The translations under genes were made by a program, and so were the position numbers. 36,480 nt of DNA. Origin: Candidatus Eisenbacteria bacterium. GTDB taxonomy: Bacteria > Eisenbacteria > RBG-16-71-46. Below are positions 15,946 to 25,572 of the stretch, piece after piece. Position 1 is the stretch's first letter. The number at the start of each line of letters is the position of its first letter. Under the pieces are notes generated by a model. It saw only the letters and a list, made by a program, of their open reading frames with translations, had not been told where the DNA came from and did no database searches. Where the stretch lies: NCBI GenBank assembly GCA_013140805.1, contig JABFRW010000135.1, positions 1 through 36,480 of the forward strand. Reading direction: 5' to 3'.

Positions 15946-17067
15946 TCAGTGCCCCCCTGCGGCCGCCGGGCCGGCCGGCTGCGCCGCATTCGAATCCGCA
16001 GCGTCGCCGCCGACTCCCGAGAGCGTCACGCGCGCACCCGGGATCAGGCCCCCCAGCGGGCCGATCACCACGCGCGCGCCGGCGGCCAGACCCGAGACGA
16101 TCTCGACGCGGTCCTGTGCTTCGTCGCGCACTCCGGTCCGCACCGCGTGGCGCGCCAGCGTTCCGTTCGCGACCGTCATCACCCACAGACTGTCGCCGTC
16201 GCCGCGAACCGCCGCGAGCGGCACCGCGAGTGCCCGCTCGACGCGCTCGGTCACCACCGCACCGCTCGCATACAGGCCGCCGACCAGCTTTCCGTTTGCG
16301 TTCGGCACCCGTACGTAGATCTTCAACTGGCGCGTCGCCGGATCCACCGCGGCATTCACGCGCGCGACCTTGCCCTCGATCGGCGCGCCGCTCCAGCCGC
16401 TTACCGACAGCCGCACGGTCGAGCCCGGACGTACGCGCAGCGCGGTCTCGCTCGGCACCGTCGCCTCGAAGTCGAGTTCGGACGTGTTGACGACGTGGAA
16501 CATCGGATCGCCGTCGGCCGGCCGATCGCCGGCCTCGACGAAGCGCTGCGACACCACGCCCGAGACCGGCGCCCGCACCACCGACTCCTCGAGCTGCTTG
16601 TTCGCGTGCGCCGCCTGCGCCTCGGCCGAACGCCAGTTCGCGAGTGCCGCTTCGACTTCACGCTTTGCGACAGCACCCGCTTTGTAGAGGTTCTCGTAGC
16701 GTTCGTGATCGGCGCGGCTCATCTCGAGCGCCGCGCGCGCGCTCGCCGCCGCGGGGGCCAGCGTGCCGGTGCGAAAGCGCGCCAGCACGGCGCCGCGAGC
16801 GACCGACTGACCCTCGCGCACCGGCACCGACTCGATCACCTCGGTCAGCGGCGCGGTGATGTTCACGTCGACGGCGGGCTGCAACGTTCCCGAGACCGGC
16901 ACCCCGGCCGTGAGCTCGATGAGTTCGGCGCTCGCGAGATCGGCGTCCGAGAGCCGCAGCGGCGTCGCGGCGTCGACGCCGGATGAGGAGCTGCCGCCGT
17001 GGCCGCAGCTGGTGAGCAGCAGCCCGGCGAACAGCGCCGCGATCGGAATCGAGAGGCGGGAAGTCAT
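15946..17067 (-). CDS. Efflux RND transporter periplasmic adaptor (membrane fusion protein) lipoprotein
   Basis: 373 residues from ATG 17067, which overlaps the last base of the upstream OMF stop codon (TGATG). Lipoprotein signal with lipobox ending at Cys21 (LLLTSC). Domains in order: barrel-sandwich strand (VDVNITAPLTEVIESVPVREG), a short helical hairpin (~115-175), second lipoyl half (VVRAPVSGVVSQRFVEAGDR), beta-barrel (FEATVPSETALRVRPGSTV), and a membrane-proximal domain with a C-terminal GARVVIGPLGGLIPGARV strand. This is the MexA/AcrA-type partner of the RND pump encoded immediately downstream. The substrate of the pump cannot be read from sequence. Confidence 0.94.
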   Translation of the reverse strand: MTSRLSIPIAALFAGLLLTSCGHGGSSSSGVDAATPLRLSDADLASAELIELTAGVPVSGTLQPAVDVNITAPLTEVIESVPVREGQSVARGAVLARFRTGTLAPAAASARAALEMSRADHERYENLYKAGAVAKREVEAALANWRSAEAQAAHANKQLEESVVRAPVSGVVSQRFVEAGDRPADGDPMFHVVNTSELDFEATVPSETALRVRPGSTVRLSVSGWSGAPIEGKVARVNAAVDPATRQLKIYVRVPNANGKLVGGLYASGAVVTERVERALAVPLAAVRGDGDSLWVMTVANGTLARHAVRTGVRDEAQDRVEIVSGLAAGARVVIGPLGGLIPGARVTLSGVGGDAADSNAAQPAGPAAAGGH

Positions 17068-18421
17068 CAGGGAGTCTCCTCGAGCAGGCGGGGCAGATCG
17101 TCGATCGAAGCCTCGCGGGTCGCAATCGGGCGGCCAAGCGCGTGCTCGAGCCCCGCCAGAGCGACGCGGTAGTCGCGCAGTGCCTCGGCCTCGTTGGCGC
17201 GGCTCTGAAGCATGCGCAGGCGGGCGTCCGAGACTTCGAGCTGGGTCGAGAGCCCGTTCTCGTAGCGCACTCGCGCCAGCTCGTGTGCACGGGTCGCGAG
17301 CGCCACGGTGCCACGCCGCGCCGCGAGTGCCGCGAGCGAACGCGCCACTTCGTCGCGCGAGCGTTCGAACTCGATCGCGACCGACTGACGGGTCTGATCG
17401 CGCTCGATCTCGGCCTGGCGCAGCTCGGCGCGCGCGCGGTGCACCGCGCCGAACACTCGCCCGCCGAGGAAGATCGGGAACTCGAGCTTGGCGCTCGCTT
17501 CCACGTTGCGGGCGAACTGATCGCGGTCGGGCCACGGATCGGTCGGGAACGCCTGATGCGAGACGGTGCCGGACGCACTCAGCGTCGGCCATCCGGCGCC
17601 GACCTCGAAGCGCTCACAGATCCCGCGCGCGCGCCGTCGAAGTCGAGCGGGCTCGTGAGCCGCACGCGACGGGCGGGGGAGATCTGAAGCTGGCGGCCCA
17701 GCTCGAGCAGCGCGGCAGCGTGCGAGTTGCGCGCACCGACCAGCGTGGGCTCGGCATTGCGCGCATCGACGCGGGCCTGCAGCAGGTCGTACTCGGCGCG
17801 CTGGCCCTGGCGCTGGCGCAGCTCGACGTCGCGCTCGTAGGCGCGCGCCTGCGTGAGCCCTTCGGTCGCGATCGTCACGAGTTCCGCTCGATAGGCCGCC
17901 TCGAAGTAAGCACGGTGCACCGACAGGCGAACGTCCTCCTCGGTCTGGCGGCGCGACGCATCGTTCGAACGCTCGAATGCGCGCGCGGCGCGCAGGGCAC
18001 CCCACACACGCGGCGAGAACAGGATCTGCGAGCCCGTCACATCGAGGTTCCAGCTGTGGACCGCGGCGAACGAGCTGTTGCGGAACAGATCGCCGAACGT
18101 GGTGTCGGTATCGAGCCCGCGAAAGATCGAGTCGAAGCGCCGCGTGTAGCCGGCCGCGGCCGAGATTTGCGGCAGCGCCTGACTGGTCGCTTCGCGCACC
18201 TGTCCGCGGGCCTGTTCGAGCCGTGCCTTCGCGAGTGCCAGCTCGGGCCCGTTCGCGAGCGCGATTCGCACCGCCTCCTCGAGCGACAGCGCGAGCGAGT
18301 CGGTACGGGCGAGTGCTTCGTCGGCGCGCACGGGCAGCGCGACTTCGAGGCCGCCGATGGCGAACGCCGCGCCGAGCACCAGCGCACCCGCCGTGACGCG
18401 CTTGCCGCGCGCCGCGCTCAT
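17067..18421 (-). pseudogene. TolC-like outer membrane efflux channel (OMF), broken by frameshift plus small deletion
   Basis: Outer-membrane channel gene of the efflux operon. From ATG 18421 the frame gives a signal peptide and the first OEP repeat (LSLEEAVRIALANGPELALAKARLEQARGQV; SWNLDVTGSQILFSPR) to LTSPLDFDG. It then turns into nonsense (SVSASRSAPDGRR) and stops at 17579. The second OEP repeat continues in another frame from about 17625 (FEVGAGWPTLSASGTVSHQAF; GLSTQLEVSDARLRML) to the stop at 17067. Between the halves only ~14 residues are found where TolC proteins have ~40, so roughly 75-80 bases plus the frame seem lost at a GC-repeat tract (17624-17635). Start overlaps the tetR stop (ATGA). 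Sequencing or assembly error at the GC tract is a real alternative to a true pseudogene. Confidence 0.78.
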
Positions 18422-19026
18422 CGCGCGCCCGCCGCGAGTCCGTCGAGCGCGATCGACATGCGCGCCTGGATCTCGGTCTTGAAGTCGAACAGCTCGGGAC
18501 AGTGCAGCCACACTAGCATGGTCATGAAGAACACGCCACGCAGCACGTAGGTGAGCCGCTCGACCGGAACGTCGGAGCGGAACTCGCCGCGCTCGCAACC
18601 CTGCTGCACCAGTCGCCCGACCGAGCTTTGCACCCGCTCGTTGATGTTGATCGCGTCCTCGAGCGAGCCGCGCAGCAGTTCGACGATCGAGTGACGGTGG
18701 AGCGCGGGATCCGCGGCATGTTGCTGCGCGCCGAACGCGAAGGTGTCGAGCAGCTTCTCGCGCACCGGGCGCGCGTCGTCGATCAGACCGTCGACGAACT
18801 GTTCGAGCCCTTCGACCTGGCGTTCGCAGATCACCGCGAGCGCGGCTTCCTTGCGCGGGAAGTAGTTGAAGAAGGTGCCCTTGGCGACGTCAGCCGCGGC
18901 GACGATCTCGTCGACCGTCGTGGCGTCGAAGCCCTTCTGATCGAACAACTGCAATGCCGCCTGATTGATGCGCTCGCGAGTTTCGTCCTTCTTGCGCTCG
19001 CGGCGTGAGATCTCGACCGGGTTCAT
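18418..19026 (-). CDS. TetR/AcrR-family transcriptional regulator of the efflux operon
   Basis: 202 residues, first gene of the efflux operon, ATG 19026 with GGAGAA upstream. N-terminal TetR DNA-binding domain: RERINQAALQLFDQKGFDATTVDEI, then the helix-turn-helix AADVAKGTFFNYFPRKEAAL (residues ~25-65). The C-terminal helices form the ligand-binding and dimer domain (to AALDGLAAGAR). Such regulators repress drug-efflux operons and release DNA when they bind the pump substrate. Two near-identical palindromes directly upstream (19071-19116) are the likely operators. Its stop overlaps the OMF start, so repressor and pump are co-expressed. Confidence 0.93.
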   Translation of the reverse strand: MNPVEISRRERKKDETRERINQAALQLFDQKGFDATTVDEIVAAADVAKGTFFNYFPRKEAALAVICERQVEGLEQFVDGLIDDARPVREKLLDTFAFGAQQHAADPALHRHSIVELLRGSLEDAININERVQSSVGRLVQQGCERGEFRSDVPVERLTYVLRGVFFMTMLVWLHCPELFDFKTEIQARMSIALDGLAAGAR

Positions 19027-19116: not shown

Positions 19117-19145
19117 TAGTTTGCAAATTCATGACCATAGCGACT

Positions 19146-22100
19146 TTAGAAACCGAGGCTCAACTCCACCGACCAGGCTCGGGTCGCACCCACGATCAGA
19201 TGAGGCACGAGCGCTCCGGCGGCGTCGTAGTCGAGATAGCCCGAGGTCGAGTAGCGCCTGTCGAGAAGGTTTCGCACCTGCAGTCCGACCGAGACCCAAG
19301 AGCCGCCTCCGCGTTCGAAGCGTCGCGCCGCGCTGGCATCGAGCAGCGTGCACGGCTCGATCGAAACGGCGCGCGACTCGGTGTTGTCGACGAAGATTCG
19401 CCCGACGTGCTGCGCAGCCAGAGACACGCTCGCGCCGGCCCATTCGGCCCGCAGCTCGGCGTGGGCGGTGGTCGAAGGCTGAAAGCCGATCGCATTGCCG
19501 TCGTAGCGCAGCGTGTCGCCGGGTGCCGTGCCGTAGACCTCGCGGTACTCGTCGAAGTGATGGTCGGCGACCGAGAGGTTCGCCGCGGCGACCAGCGCGA
19601 GCGGCCGGCCGGCCGGCCGCGCCGGAGTCGTCCAGGCTCCGTGCGCTGCGAGTTCGACGCCCTGATGAACCGAGCGCGCGGCATTGCCGATCGTCGAGTA
19701 GCCGAGATCGGTGTTGAACTGCCCGGCGAACACCAGCTCGTCTTCGAAGTCCATTCGGTAGAGGTTCGCGCTCAGTTCGAGCGCGGCGCCCGGCCGCCAC
19801 CGTGCACCGGCCTCCCAGTCGGTGACGCGCTCGGGCCTGACGAGCGGATCGCGGTAGACGCCATTCGAGATGTCGATCGTGCCGTAGAGGGGCACGCTTC
19901 CGACGCCCTCGGCGTCGAACAGATCGCGAAGTGCCGGCTCGCGGCGCGCGTGCGCGGCACTGGCGAACAGGTCGAGCCGGGGTGTAACCCGCCAGTGAAC
20001 ACCGGCGCGCGGGATCGCGAAGTCGTAGGGTTGATCGAAGCGGATGCCGTCGAATCGATCGCCGCGCATGGCGTAGTCGGCATGCCGCCACGCGAGGTCG
20101 AAGGTCGCATCGAGTTGCGCGTTCACCGTCCATTCGGTGCGCGCGAACACGCCCGCGGCGAGCGTGCGCGGGTGGTAGTCGTAGTACGTGTGGCCCGGAG
20201 CGAAGCCCGGAACGCCGCCGGCGGACAGCAGCGAGCCTACATGCCGACCGTCGTGCGCGCGCAGCTCGCCACCCACGGTCACCGCGACGCGGCCACGCTC
20301 GATGCGTGCGCGTGGCACCCACCCGTAGTGGCGGTTCTTCACCTCGCGCCGCCTCACCAGGTCGAAGCGTTCGACGCGGAAGCGGCCGAGCGAGTCCTGC
20401 ACCAGCGTGCCGCCGCCGTCCTGCGCGTAGTAGTCGCGCGGCGCGAGCGTCGAGTCCGAGGTGCTCCAGGGCGCCAGGCGATAGTCGGCCAGCGAGCGCC
20501 CGAAGCGCTGCTCGTCGTAGTAGCCCTCGCCGTCGAAGTAAAAGAGCGTTTGTGTGAACGAGGTTCGAGGCGTCGGAGTCCAGGTGTGAATCAGCTCGTA
20601 GTGGGGCTCGAAGAAGTGATCGCGCTCGCCCGCGAAGCGGATGGGATTGAAGCGCCGATCGCGTTCCACATCGCCGCTCACCCGCCCTTCGAGATAGTCG
20701 GCGGGAACGCCGAGATAGGCGAGATGCGTCTGTTCGGGGCCGCCGTAGACGCTCGCTCGCAGCGTGTGATGGCCCGCGGTACGGCGCGCGGCGAACAGGA
20801 ACGACCACAGCTTCGAGTCACTCAACTCGCGATAACCGGCGGTCTCGATTCGCGAATAGCGGCCATAGAGATTCCAGCCGCCGTCGAGTTCTCCCGAACC
20901 CATTTCTGCCGAGACGCGACGCGTGTCGAACGAACCGAGTGCGGCGCGCAAGCCGAGTGTGCGCTCGATCGTGAACGGTGAGGTCTCGAGGTGGACGCTG
21001 CCGCCCATCGACGCAGCGCCGTAGAGTGCCGAGCCGACGCCGCGCTGCACCTCGACGCGTGAGGTGGAAGCGAGCAGGTCCGGATGATCGATCCAGTAGA
21101 CCTCGTGCGACTCGGGGTCGTTGAGCGGCACACCATTGACGAGCACGCTGATGCGGCGCTGCGGAAAGCCGCGGATCGACAGGTAGGAGTAACCAATGCC
21201 GTTGCCGGCATCCGAGTACGCGTAGACGCCCGGCAGGTGCGCGAGCTGCATCGGTGTGTCGAGCCCCTGATTGCGGCGCCGGATCTCGTCGCGCGTCATG
21301 ATCGAGCGAGCCTGGGGTGCCCGGTCACCGGGTGAAGCGGTGCTGACTTCGATACCCGGCAGCGGCACCACACGGTCGAGCGTGTCGGGGGAGTCGGCGC
21401 GTGCGGCAGTCGCCCCGCCGAGCGCGAGCACGCATCCGATCAGCATCGCGACGCGCGGCGCCATTCGCGCCGAGGTGAGGCGGCGCACGACATGCCCGAC
21501 GAGATAGCAGAGCAGCGAAGTGCCGAGCCCGGCGTAGATCGGCTCGAGACCCAACGGATAGCGCGCGCCGGGACCGCTCAGGTTGTGCACCAGCACCCAC
21601 ACGGTCGTGACCACCAGGGGTGCGGCCATCGCGAACGCGGTCGCACGCGGGCCGAGCCGCCAGCGTCCGAGCAGCGCGGTGCCGACCGGCGCGAGCATCG
21701 CCGGAGCGGTGATCGAGCCGAGGTCGCGCCACAAGTCGATCACGCTGCGGCTCGCGATCGCGAGCGCGGTCGCGAAGCCGGCCGCGAGCCACAGTCCGAG
21801 GTTGCTGTAGAACGGAATCCGCGACTCGTCGCGCTCGCCACGCAGCCGCCACATCACGTCGCGCCCGATGGTGGTGGCGGCGATGAAACCGTAGGAGTCG
21901 ATGGTGCTCATCACGGTCGCGATCATCGACAGGAAAAACAGGCCGAGCAGGCCCGGCGGCAACACGAGCTTCGCGAGTTCCGGAAACGCCAGCACCGGGT
22001 TGGTCAGGTCGGGCAACAGAGCGCGCGCGTAGATCGCGCAGAACGTGGTCATGAAGTCGAACACGGCCCAGCACCCGATCGAGATCAGAACGCCATTGCG

Positions 22101-22862
22101 CGCCACGCCGGGGTCACGGGCTGCATAGGCGCGTTGCCAGAACGCCGGCTCGACCAGGGTTCCGAGCGCGATCACGTACCACACGAAGATCGCGCTGGGT
22201 GGATTGCCGCCGTGCCACGTGAAGTGTTCGACCGGAACGCGCGACGGCAGCGAGGCGAGTCCGCCGTGACGTGCCACCAGCGTCACGAGCAGCACCGCGA
22301 AGCCCGCGAACATGAGGCCGAACTGGACCTGGTCGGTCAGCACCACGGTGCGCAGTCCGCCGCGCTGGATGTAGAACAGTGAGGTGAGTGCCGCCGCGAT
22401 GATGCATGGCACCACGGGAAGGCCGAACATCGCGGAGTAGAGGGTGCCGAGCATCAGCACGTAAGCCGCCGGCGCCGAGCCGACGAACACGGCGAGCGCG
22501 CCGATCAGCGACGGGGTTCGCCCGTACGTGCGCTCGAGCAGATCGGGCAACGTGAAGAGTTCGGTCTGTCGTGCGCGCTTCGCGAACCACAATGCGAACA
22601 GCAGCGCGCCGATGTAGTACGGCACGCCGAACACCAGCCAGTTCGAGATGCCGAAGCGAAATCCGTACTCGCCGACGCCCAGGATGCCGCCGTACCAGGT
22701 CGCGACGAGGGTGGCGACGAACGCGGGAAGCGTGACGCGGCGTCCCGCGACCAGATAGTCGAGCGTGCCGCGTGCGCGCCCTTCGGGACGCAGCCACACC
22801 ACGACGAGAAATGCGACGTAGGCCGCCAGCAGCGCCCAGTCCACCCAGTGGGTGCTGAACAA
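19146..22862 (-). CDS. Sodium:solute symporter fused to TonB-dependent receptor, TPP-riboswitch controlled (putative thiamine uptake)
   Basis: One frame of 1238 codons with no stop between two transport proteins. Residues 1-466: SSS-family inner-membrane symporter (YLVAGRRVTLPAF, TWYGGILGVGEYGFRFG and about 12-13 hydrophobic helices), a normal full length. Residues 467-1238: complete TonB receptor. It begins MAPRVAMLIGCVLALGG, with a signal-peptidase site after Ala489 (ARA|DS). Next come a TonB-box-like segment (PGIEVSTA, ~502-509), a plug domain (IMTRDEIRRRNQGLDTPMQL; LSIRGFPQRRISVLVNGVPL), and a 22-strand barrel ending in the usual C-terminal Phe (VELSLGF). TTG 22862 is chosen as start because GGAGAG precedes it and both are paired in a hairpin after the riboswitch; an upstream TTG (22895) would add 11 arginine-rich residues. 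Substrate inferred from the TPP aptamer: thiamine or a precursor. Confidence 0.85.
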   Translation of the reverse strand: MFSTHWVDWALLAAYVAFLVVVWLRPEGRARGTLDYLVAGRRVTLPAFVATLVATWYGGILGVGEYGFRFGISNWLVFGVPYYIGALLFALWFAKRARQTELFTLPDLLERTYGRTPSLIGALAVFVGSAPAAYVLMLGTLYSAMFGLPVVPCIIAAALTSLFYIQRGGLRTVVLTDQVQFGLMFAGFAVLLVTLVARHGGLASLPSRVPVEHFTWHGGNPPSAIFVWYVIALGTLVEPAFWQRAYAARDPGVARNGVLISIGCWAVFDFMTTFCAIYARALLPDLTNPVLAFPELAKLVLPPGLLGLFFLSMIATVMSTIDSYGFIAATTIGRDVMWRLRGERDESRIPFYSNLGLWLAAGFATALAIASRSVIDLWRDLGSITAPAMLAPVGTALLGRWRLGPRATAFAMAAPLVVTTVWVLVHNLSGPGARYPLGLEPIYAGLGTSLLCYLVGHVVRRLTSARMAPRVAMLIGCVLALGGATAARADSPDTLDRVVPLPGIEVSTASPGDRAPQARSIMTRDEIRRRNQGLDTPMQLAHLPGVYAYSDAGNGIGYSYLSIRGFPQRRISVLVNGVPLNDPESHEVYWIDHPDLLASTSRVEVQRGVGSALYGAASMGGSVHLETSPFTIERTLGLRAALGSFDTRRVSAEMGSGELDGGWNLYGRYSRIETAGYRELSDSKLWSFLFAARRTAGHHTLRASVYGGPEQTHLAYLGVPADYLEGRVSGDVERDRRFNPIRFAGERDHFFEPHYELIHTWTPTPRTSFTQTLFYFDGEGYYDEQRFGRSLADYRLAPWSTSDSTLAPRDYYAQDGGGTLVQDSLGRFRVERFDLVRRREVKNRHYGWVPRARIERGRVAVTVGGELRAHDGRHVGSLLSAGGVPGFAPGHTYYDYHPRTLAAGVFARTEWTVNAQLDATFDLAWRHADYAMRGDRFDGIRFDQPYDFAIPRAGVHWRVTPRLDLFASAAHARREPALRDLFDAEGVGSVPLYGTIDISNGVYRDPLVRPERVTDWEAGARWRPGAALELSANLYRMDFEDELVFAGQFNTDLGYSTIGNAARSVHQGVELAAHGAWTTPARPAGRPLALVAAANLSVADHHFDEYREVYGTAPGDTLRYDGNAIGFQPSTTAHAELRAEWAGASVSLAAQHVGRIFVDNTESRAVSIEPCTLLDASAARRFERGGGSWVSVGLQVRNLLDRRYSTSGYLDYDAAGALVPHLIVGATRAWSVELSLGF

Positions 22863-22912
22863 TCGTCTCTCCGCACGAGGGCGGCGTGAAGGCAAGCGGA
22901 GAGTCCCGATTG
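22860..22912 (-). promoter_or_regulatory. Expression-platform hairpin sequestering RBS and start codon
   Basis: Minus-strand arms CAATCG + CTCTCCGC (22912-22907 and 22903-22896) pair with GCGGAGAG + CGATTG (22874-22867 and 22865-22860): 14 base pairs with one small internal loop and a 21-base terminal loop. The 3' arm contains the Shine-Dalgarno (GGAGAG) and the TTG start codon (22862) of the symporter-receptor gene. Located just 3' of the TPP aptamer, this is the layout of a translation-blocking riboswitch. The alternative antisequestering pairing was not identified. Confidence 0.7.
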
Positions 22913-22917
22913 TCTTC

Positions 22918-23004
22918 GCCGTTTCCCTACGCTGGTTTGAGCCAGATCAGGTTCGAAGGGTGTCATCTCAGGCCGGCATGTCTCCGCCGACCACCCCCAA
23001 CGAC
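22918..23004 (-). promoter_or_regulatory. TPP (thi-box) riboswitch aptamer
   Basis: Reading the minus strand, the aptamer core is present in order. P1 5' strand is CGTT followed by GGGGGTG; P3 pairs GGTCGGC with GCCGGCC; then come the conserved CTGAGA, the ACCCTTCGAACCTGATCTGG block, CAAACCAGCG and the closing TAGGGAAACG, whose AACG pairs with the CGTT of P1. These are the diagnostic conserved strings of the thiamin pyrophosphate riboswitch. It lies in the leader of the symporter-receptor gene and ties that gene to thiamine supply; TPP binding normally switches expression off. Confidence 0.95.
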
Positions 23005-23136
23005 GATGCCGCTTTCGCGGACGCGCGCAGTCTGCTCCGAGGCGGGCTGCGAGATCAAGTGCGCTGTGGCATTCTCGCCGCGCGCCATCGCATCGACGTG
23101 ATGGTCCAACGCTTCGGTCCCACGGAAGGAGACCTC

Positions 23137-25572
23137 ATGCGCGCCCCCGCTTCGCTTCGCTGTTCCGTCGCACTCGCGACGCTGCTGTTCGCGCTCGCGA
23201 CGCTGCTGCTCGCGCTCACGCCGCTCGCAGCGCGCGCGTGGCCGCACGGCCCGACGAATAATCTCCATCTCGAAGGTGCGTTCTTCATCAAGGAGCGCCC
23301 GGTCGCGGCACCCGATGGCGCCGGCGGCGTGTACGTCGCGTGGGCCGAACAGCACGCGACGTGGGACATCTATGCGCAGCGCGTGGACGCGAGCGGCGAA
23401 GTGTTGTGGACGAGCGGCGGAGTGGCCGTGTGTTCCGCGGCAGGGGACCAGCGCGAGCCGGTGATCACGGCGCTCCCGCAAGGCGGATGCGTCATCGGCT
23501 GGGTGGATCGCCGCAACACGGACGCCGACGTCTATGCACAGCGCCTGTCGGCGACCACGGGAGCCGCGCTGTGGACCGCCGATGGCGTCTCGGTGAGCAA
23601 CATCGTCAGTCTCGACGAAGTCGCGGTACAGATCGCGTATCAGTTCGACGGAATCTATTTCGTGTGGCAGGACGGCGGTCCCGGAAATTGGGACATCTAC
23701 GGGCAGCGACTCGGAATGAACGGCGCCCGGCTCTGGAACGCGACTGGACTGCCGATCGCCGTTGCCGCCTCCGAGCAGACCGCTCCGCAGATGGCCATCA
23801 ACGATCCGTCGCTCGAGTTCCAGGTGGTGTGGACCGACGCTCGTGGTGGCGCTGCGACCGATCTCTACGCGCAGCGCGTGCTGTTCGGCGGCACGGTGGG
23901 TCTGGCGGTCAACGGGGTGGTGGTCTGCAACGCCGCCGGCGAGCAGTCACAGCCGCGCATCGCGCTTCTGAACGGCGGTGAGTTTGGAATGGTGTGGCGC
24001 GACGAGCGTTCGGGCACGGCCGATCTCTACGCGCAGCGCTTCGGACAATTCGGAGCCGCCGTCTTCGGACTCAACGGCATCCCGATCATCACCGGAACGA
24101 ATGATCCTTCGCAGCCGCGGATCCTGTACGACGGCGCCGGCGGATTCTTCACCGCGAGCCTCGATGCCGAGGGCTTCGGTTTCACCGGCATTCGCTTTCA
24201 GCACATCGGCCCGACCGGGGCGATCCTGTGGGGTGCGCAGGGGACGCCGAACAACTCCGCGTTCGTCGTCGGCGCTCAGATACCGCAGCTGGTCTCGGAT
24301 GGGGTCGGCGGGGTGATCGCGTTGTGGCAGGACCATCGCGAACGCGGCAACGGGCAGATCTGGGCGACGCACTTCAATTCGCTCGGCAACTCGATCTGGG
24401 CGGGAGACCTGCTGGTCGCCGAGCTGCCCGTTCAGAACACCGCGACCATGGCCGCCGTCACCGATGCGCGCGGCGGTGCCATCGTTCCGCTCTCGCAAGT
24501 CTCCCTGTACCAGGTGCTCGTGAAACGCCTGGATCGCTTCGGCATGACCGGCGCCGAACCGCAGGTCACCTCGGTGCGCGACGTGGCGAACGACCAGGGC
24601 GGACAAGTGAAGGTGAGCTGGAACGCGAGCCCGCTCGATGTCGATCCGCTCTACGAGAGCATCGAGGAGTACTGGCTGCTGAGAGACGTGCCGACCTCGC
24701 TGATCGCCGAAGCGAAGGCCGACGCGTTCGTGCGCCTGAAGCCCGGCGACCCGAAGCCGGCTGACGACCAGCGCGCGTTGGTCGAGATCGAAGCCGCGCC
24801 CGGAAACTGGGAGTTCGTCGCGGCGGTCCCGGCCGCGCATCTCGCGGCCTACAGCAAAGTGGTCGCCACCACCGGCGACTCGGTTGCGGCCGGCAATCCA
24901 CGCACGCGCTTCATGGTGCAGGCACGCGGGACCGCGATTGGCACCAACGCATGGTGGGACTCCGAGCCCGACTCGGGCTACTCGGTCGACGATCTGGCGC
25001 CCGCGATGCCGGCGCCGTTCACGGGTACGCATGCGCCGGGTGTCGGCACGTTCCTGTCGTGGGGCGCCAATCTCGAAACCGATCTCGCCGGCTATCGGCT
25101 CTATCGCGGCTCGAGCCTGGGCTTCGTGCCGAGTCTCGCGAATCGCGTCGCCTCGACGGCACTCACCCATTTCGAACACGCGACCGCGGGTCCGGTCTAC
25201 AAGCTCTCGGCGGTCGACACTCACGGCAATGAATCGGCGTACAACGTGCTGGTGCCGGGCGGCATCGTGGACGCGCCGGGTGTCTCGACCCCGGTCGAGT
25301 TCGCGCTCGCAAGTCCGTCGCCGAATCCGAGCCGCGACGCGATCTCCGTGCGCTATGCGCTACCGCGCGCGTCCTCGGTGCGCCTGTCGGTGGTCGATGC
25401 GCAGGGCCGTCGGGTGCGCTTGATCGAATCGAGCGAGCGAGCGGCGGGGGAGTGGAACGTGCGTTGGGACGGTCGCGATGAGTCGGGGGCCGCGAGTTCC
25501 AGCGGGCTCTACTGGCTGCGGCTCGAGGCCGGGGGCCGCGTGATGTCGCAACGGTTCGTGCGACTGCGATAG
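23137..25572 (+). CDS. Secreted repeat protein (putative beta-propeller) with fibronectin-like and FlgD-like domains
   Basis: 811 residues from ATG 23137, with AGGAG five bases upstream. A signal peptide (RAPASLRCSVALATLLFALA to the ARA|WP site, ~34) exports it. Residues ~40-475 contain eight imperfect repeats of ~54 residues, each with a W/D-x-YAQR-type strand followed by G-x-x-LW (WDIYAQRVDASGEVLW, ADVYAQRLSATTGAALW, TDLYAQRVLFGG and so on), suggesting a beta-propeller. After that come a fibronectin type III-like region with SWNASPLDVDPLYES and LSWGANLETDLAGYRLYRG, and a C-terminal FlgD-like Ig domain (VVDAQGRRVRLI, WDGRDESG, GLYWLRL), as in the protease at 805-5577. No catalytic motif is recognised; function unknown, probably cell-surface or released. 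It is transcribed divergently from the riboswitch-controlled gene. Confidence 0.85.
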   Translation: MRAPASLRCSVALATLLFALATLLLALTPLAARAWPHGPTNNLHLEGAFFIKERPVAAPDGAGGVYVAWAEQHATWDIYAQRVDASGEVLWTSGGVAVCSAAGDQREPVITALPQGGCVIGWVDRRNTDADVYAQRLSATTGAALWTADGVSVSNIVSLDEVAVQIAYQFDGIYFVWQDGGPGNWDIYGQRLGMNGARLWNATGLPIAVAASEQTAPQMAINDPSLEFQVVWTDARGGAATDLYAQRVLFGGTVGLAVNGVVVCNAAGEQSQPRIALLNGGEFGMVWRDERSGTADLYAQRFGQFGAAVFGLNGIPIITGTNDPSQPRILYDGAGGFFTASLDAEGFGFTGIRFQHIGPTGAILWGAQGTPNNSAFVVGAQIPQLVSDGVGGVIALWQDHRERGNGQIWATHFNSLGNSIWAGDLLVAELPVQNTATMAAVTDARGGAIVPLSQVSLYQVLVKRLDRFGMTGAEPQVTSVRDVANDQGGQVKVSWNASPLDVDPLYESIEEYWLLRDVPTSLIAEAKADAFVRLKPGDPKPADDQRALVEIEAAPGNWEFVAAVPAAHLAAYSKVVATTGDSVAAGNPRTRFMVQARGTAIGTNAWWDSEPDSGYSVDDLAPAMPAPFTGTHAPGVGTFLSWGANLETDLAGYRLYRGSSLGFVPSLANRVASTALTHFEHATAGPVYKLSAVDTHGNESAYNVLVPGGIVDAPGVSTPVEFALASPSPNPSRDAISVRYALPRASSVRLSVVDAQGRRVRLIESSERAAGEWNVRWDGRDESGAASSSGLYWLRLEAGGRVMSQRFVRLR
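23355..24540 (+). repeat. Eight in-frame ~54-residue protein repeats
   Basis: Repeat units begin near 23361, 23524, 23690, 23856, 24019, 24181, 24352 and 24505, a spacing of 153-171 bases. Shared core in the translation: (W/A/T)D-(I/V/L)-Y-(A/G)-Q-R followed by a G-rich turn and a hydrophobic strand ending LW. The first five units are well conserved (DIYAQR, DVYAQR, DIYGQR, DLYAQR, DLYAQR); the last three are degenerate (GIRFQH, IWATHF, VLVKRL). Confidence 0.75.

Follow-up and report, generated by a model that had tools for sequence, protein, structure and literature searches.

Bacterial polyproteins are rare. One of them is the cytochrome b/c1 precursor encoded by fbcH in Bradyrhizobium, which joins a polytopic inner-membrane protein, an internal signal peptide and an exported domain in one chain that is cut after synthesis. 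The fbcH products stay together in one inner-membrane complex, and we know of no bacterial polyprotein that yields an inner-membrane and an outer-membrane transporter from a single chain. An export signal that follows transmembrane helices has also been described in the Sec/Tat dual-targeted polytopic proteins, where an engineered signal-peptidase site released an attached reporter (PMC5449189). In the field of vitamin B1 uptake, the Bacteroides OMthi and PnuT-Tnr3 systems comprise a TonB receptor linked to a TPP riboswitch together with an inner-membrane transporter (PMC5613172). In SAR11, ThiV is an SSS symporter encoded downstream of a TPP riboswitch in a host unable to make B1 unaided, and it has been proposed to import HMP (PMC11452348).

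The locus described here lies in a window of 36,480 nucleotides from a Candidatus Eisenbacteria bacterium (contig JABFRW010000135.1, here C135, part of a 3.8-Mb genome), and its relatives are metagenome-assembled genomes (MAGs) of Candidatus Eisenbacteria. Like fbcH, its frame consists of a polytopic membrane domain, an internal signal peptide and an exported domain, with cleavage being predicted in this case. Unlike the fbcH products, its two halves belong to different membranes and to different transport steps. The likeness is in working only: Pfam finds no cytochrome b/c1 homology, which rules out membership in the fbcH family. OMthi and PnuT differ from the window locus in being separate genes, and PnuT takes the inner-membrane place that an SSS symporter has here (PMC5613172). 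As with ThiV, the SSS symporter of the window stands under a TPP riboswitch (RF00059, directly upstream), the two being alike in protein family and in regulation; contrary to ThiV, HMP alone would be useless to a family nearly devoid of ThiE, and no fused receptor has been reported for ThiV (PMC11452348). Finally, the Sec/Tat dual-targeted proteins carry Tat signals within polytopic proteins, whereas the window frame holds a predicted Sec-type peptide with an AxA site (PMC5449189). A literature search of limited coverage found no account of a fusion between symporter and receptor, and this absence carries little weight.

One frame for two membrane proteins

The frame runs on the minus strand from 22862 to 19146 and encodes 1238 amino acids, its first stop in translation being the TGA at 19146-19148. 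The original prediction held that no stop separates the symporter from the receptor; the translation is open throughout, and both the coordinates and the join proved correct. At the junction, RRLTSAR is followed by MAPRVAMLIGCVLALGGATAARA and then by DSPDT. Pfam places SSF (36-348), Plug (514-621) and the TonB barrel (755-1199) on the single chain and no domains besides these three, in keeping with the earlier claim of a full symporter and a complete TonB receptor in one frame. Codon-frame scoring prefers one frame across the entire junction, in the window as well as in the second fused locus described below, the hosts being two soil or groundwater bacteria. The TTG start codon (22860..22862, minus strand) has GGAGAG ahead of it, with a Shine-Dalgarno energy of -6.6 kcal/mol, and the protein start aligns with that of split symporters (MFSxSPLDW). 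An internal ATG (21464-21462, minus strand) stands in frame exactly at the start of the signal peptide; the 20 nucleotides upstream of it pair with the anti-Shine-Dalgarno sequence at -1.7 kcal/mol, which agrees with the predicted lack of a Shine-Dalgarno there. A genome search finds no second copy of either the symporter half or the receptor half in the window's genome.

Around the frame, the downstream genes (15946-19026, minus strand) encode a TetR regulator, an outer-membrane efflux protein and an HlyD-type adaptor, that is, an efflux cluster. A divergent 906-residue frame (22852-25572, plus strand) carries a C-terminal FlgD Ig-like domain, and a 616-residue open frame antisense to the receptor (19131-20981, plus strand) is probably a by-product of high GC.

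The first half, residues 1-466 (21465..22862, minus strand), is a sodium:solute symporter of the SSS/SSF family (PF00474, 9.3e-30, 104.2 bits for a cut-off of 22.8). Its AlphaFold model has a mean pLDDT of 89, with low confidence past residue 482, and shows a LeuT-type fold with 13 predicted transmembrane helices, counted from the secondary structure of the model; Foldseek matches it to CHT1, SGLT2, SiaT and vSGLT (TMq 0.66-0.80). When the C-terminus is placed inside, 14 lysines and arginines face the inside and 4 the outside, and the positive-inside rule thus predicts a cytoplasmic C-terminus.

Next comes the internal signal peptide, residues 467-489 (21396..21464, minus strand), recognized by its sequence, positive-inside count and hydropathy, and matching the N-terminal signal peptides of split receptors. 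In the window, RRLTSARMAPR precedes a hydrophobic stretch that ends in a predicted AxA-type cleavage site, ARA-DS (the hyphen marking the cut), which reads AAA-DE in the second fused locus. The topology check called for by the original prediction suits an internal signal: after 13 helices and an inside C-terminus, the predicted N-in signal peptide would have the orientation required by signal peptidase I. The remainder, residues 490-1238 (19146..21395, minus strand), corresponds to the mature TonB-dependent receptor, with a TonB-box-like IEVST, a plug (PF07715, 7.8e-18) and a beta-barrel (PF00593, 2.3e-30). Its AlphaFold model has the plug in the barrel (mean pLDDT 86), and its best fold matches are PqqU/YncD, then FecA. 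The signal peptide usual at the N-terminus of a TonB receptor is internal here, and would be N-terminal only if Met467 were the start. Judged from sequence, barrel and plug mark the second half as a TonB receptor; the whole gene product is no ordinary one. About 25-30 residues separate the predicted cleavage site from the ordered plug, a spacer too short, by estimate, to span the periplasm; the receptor would thus seem to need cleavage before it can insert into the outer membrane.

Split relatives and a second fusion

Is the fused frame a property of the whole family? The junction is readable in 19 loci, and 17 of these, from 16 Candidatus Eisenbacteria genomes with identity up to about 69%, carry separate genes. 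The original prediction asked whether close relatives share the fused junction. Most do not: a stop or a frame change, which the original prediction named as grounds against it, divides the halves in 17 of the 19 loci; a fusion conserved family-wide is thereby ruled out. In 15 of the 17 split loci the two genes overlap in an ATGA or GTGA that holds both the symporter stop and the receptor start, the exceptions being G002 with a 5-nt gap and G011 with an 8-nt overlap. With a stop and a Shine-Dalgarno of its own for the receptor in the split loci, the fused frame must be regarded as derived. The way to it is short: all split relatives measured have 48 nt or more of stop-free receptor frame ahead of the start codon, and in several this reaches through the whole symporter, so that a small indel is enough for an in-frame fusion. 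DNA of such high GC content often holds long open frames. A search of the wider phylum (47 genomes) found no further fusion. Other families of the class and a Zixiibacteriota MAG show the reverse gene order, receptor then symporter (L022, L023, L025, L026, L027, L048).

The second fusion was found in G005 (L003/L032, JACOSV010000033.1), where one frame covers nearly all of the 1238-residue query at 61% identity. In place of the ATG AAG ACG ATC that begins the receptor in the split locus of G014, G005 reads GCG CGC ACG ATC. No ATG, GTG or TTG there would yield a whole signal peptide, and the sole nearby in-frame ATG would truncate it. The receptor start codon having been lost, only the fused product makes sense in this genome. 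G005 and the split G014 share a genus code and are sisters in the two-protein tree (100/98), and the window's genome is placed elsewhere. The simplest reading is that the window and G005 fused independently. A single origin of the fused alleles appears less likely, since the sister of G005 is split; yet the symporter-receptor locus tree, on which two changes are needed, is compatible with it by the AU test (p 0.34). A search for rpoB, intended as a species marker, gave no match in the assemblies of G005 and G014.

This second case bears on whether the window frame could be a sequencing or assembly error, with a base missing or extra at the junction of two overlapping genes. Each split relative is about one indel away from the fused state, and MAG frames may hold indels, related receptors in G002, G014 and G027 being frame-broken. 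However, the longest homopolymer at either junction, in the window or in G005, is of 3 bases at most, and a frame shift alone does not account for the loss of both the ATGA overlap and the Shine-Dalgarno. Moreover, the fusion recurs at the same position in a MAG of a different genus, which has lost the start codon too. With the same junction fused in a second lineage, the window fusion is not a lone error, and we hold an artefact to be quite improbable. The broken frames mentioned above are located mid-barrel (L039 ~6930, L040 ~5475, L028 ~3036) and are either assembly indels or pseudogenes.

Could the receptor then be made mainly by internal initiation at ATG 21464, through re-initiation or a leaderless-like start, with the fused chain as a tolerated by-product? 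The window does hold that in-frame ATG at the start of the signal peptide, and split receptors start at the matching position, apparently by coupled translation. The pairing of -1.7 kcal/mol is however far from the -5.2 to -12.8 kcal/mol seen at the receptor starts of the 16 split loci measured, and no stop lies close by for termination-coupled re-initiation. The fused G005 has no usable start at all, and the free symporter would still require cleavage. As the main source of receptor, internal initiation is thus unlikely; some of it is possible in the window, where the ATG has been kept.

The TPP riboswitch and vitamin B1

Directly upstream of the fused frame lies a TPP riboswitch aptamer (RF00059; 22907..23008, minus strand), which scores 66.4 bits, above the gathering score, and is the only one found in the 3.8-Mb genome. 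In the order, 19 of 21 genomes have a TPP riboswitch at the symporter-receptor locus, one each except for two in G017. This last genome holds two copies of the riboswitch-symporter-receptor locus on contigs C125 and C222 (L044, L045), its contamination being listed as 6%. Between aptamer and start in the window, a putative expression-platform hairpin (22867..22903, minus strand) pairs the arms CTCTCCGC (22903-22896) and GCGGAGAG (22874-22867) in an 8-bp helix of the predicted fold, covering the Shine-Dalgarno of the TTG start. The leader as a whole folds no better than shuffles (z-score 0.44), and the hairpin rests on this specific Shine-Dalgarno pairing, spotted post hoc. Most split leaders contain a GC-rich hairpin, in many cases with T-rich sequence after it; the window lacks this arrangement, and no terminator T-run is present in its leader. 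By coordinates, the distance from aptamer to start is shortest in the fused loci, at 45 nt (window) and 46 nt (G005) versus about 69-145 nt in split loci, a comparison made post hoc on two fused cases. In both fused lineages, hairpins overlap the start region. The short leader is put forward as a lead, in that one translational switch would then control both halves.

The genes found elsewhere in the order give the riboswitch its context. ThiC is absent from all 21 genomes, ThiE gives a weak match in one, and TPK occurs only in G020, a genome from outside the family, where it adjoins the locus. The window's own genome has no match to ThiC, ThiE or TPK, and it encodes 6 TPP-enzyme domains. With ThiC absent and ThiE and TPK almost absent, the symporter-receptor locus is probably the sole B1 supply of the family. 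Its regulation and the missing pathway genes make thiamine uptake the likely role of the window locus, and what the family takes in is probably thiamine, thiamine monophosphate or TPP. Plain salvage from thiamine with TPK is unlikely in this family, TPK and ThiE being missing. ThiL scores above cut-off in 15 of the 21 genomes, the window's genome having only an incomplete match where a contig ends; its retention in most genomes despite the missing ThiC and the almost missing ThiE and TPK makes an unusual B1 salvage set, which suggests either that thiamine phosphates are taken up or that a kinase has escaped recognition.

These data also bear on whether the fusion, though real, might be broken, that is, a lineage-specific degraded allele which no longer supplies both proteins. 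Fusion is rare among the relatives, and frame-broken receptors are known in the family. Against this, the symporter domain (466 residues) and the receptor domain (about 750 residues) are each intact and conserved along their length, the riboswitch is intact, and the genome, which has no ThiC, ThiE or TPK matches, holds no other copy. We give degradation hardly any credence.

A proposed route from one chain to two membranes

Synthesis as a polyprotein, proposed in the original prediction, is well supported at the sequence level: the frame is free of stops, the internal start is without a Shine-Dalgarno, second copies are absent, and the second fusion has no usable receptor start. Since no stop lies between the halves, ribosomes that start at TTG 22862 enter the receptor unless they drop off, and with no second symporter copy a free symporter could come only from a cut or from a frameshift. 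We consider it likely that the window holds a polyprotein gene for B1 uptake, which arose when two overlapping genes of an operon fused in frame and whose receptor would be released by signal peptidase I.

For this gene we infer single-chain translation, cleavage, localisation and substrate as follows. The TPP riboswitch would govern a single start codon, TTG 22862, from which ribosomes would make one chain composed of the 13-helix SSS symporter, a short positive turn, the former signal peptide and the TonB receptor. The symporter, ThiV-like in role, would end in the cytoplasm. The internal signal peptide would enter the membrane N-in, making fourteen segments in all, and the remainder of the chain would pass through Sec. 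Signal peptidase I would then cleave after Ala489. The symporter would remain in the inner membrane, keeping the signal peptide as an added C-terminal helix, while the receptor would reach the outer membrane by the Bam pathway.

Against the polyprotein reading, all other relatives examined are without the fusion, so that selection for it is not demonstrable. The wider proposal, that a coupled transporter gene pair became on two occasions a two-membrane polyprotein split by signal peptidase I, with one riboswitch-controlled start setting the halves of a vitamin route at 1:1, is a tentative one, and some doubt attaches to it.

If the polyprotein reading is true, Sec and signal peptidase I can naturally resolve a fusion between a polytopic protein and a beta-barrel. 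Operon coupling could then become fusion repeatedly, and split sister species would provide ready controls. As for the organisms themselves, the lineage appears to depend on this one locus for its vitamin B1.
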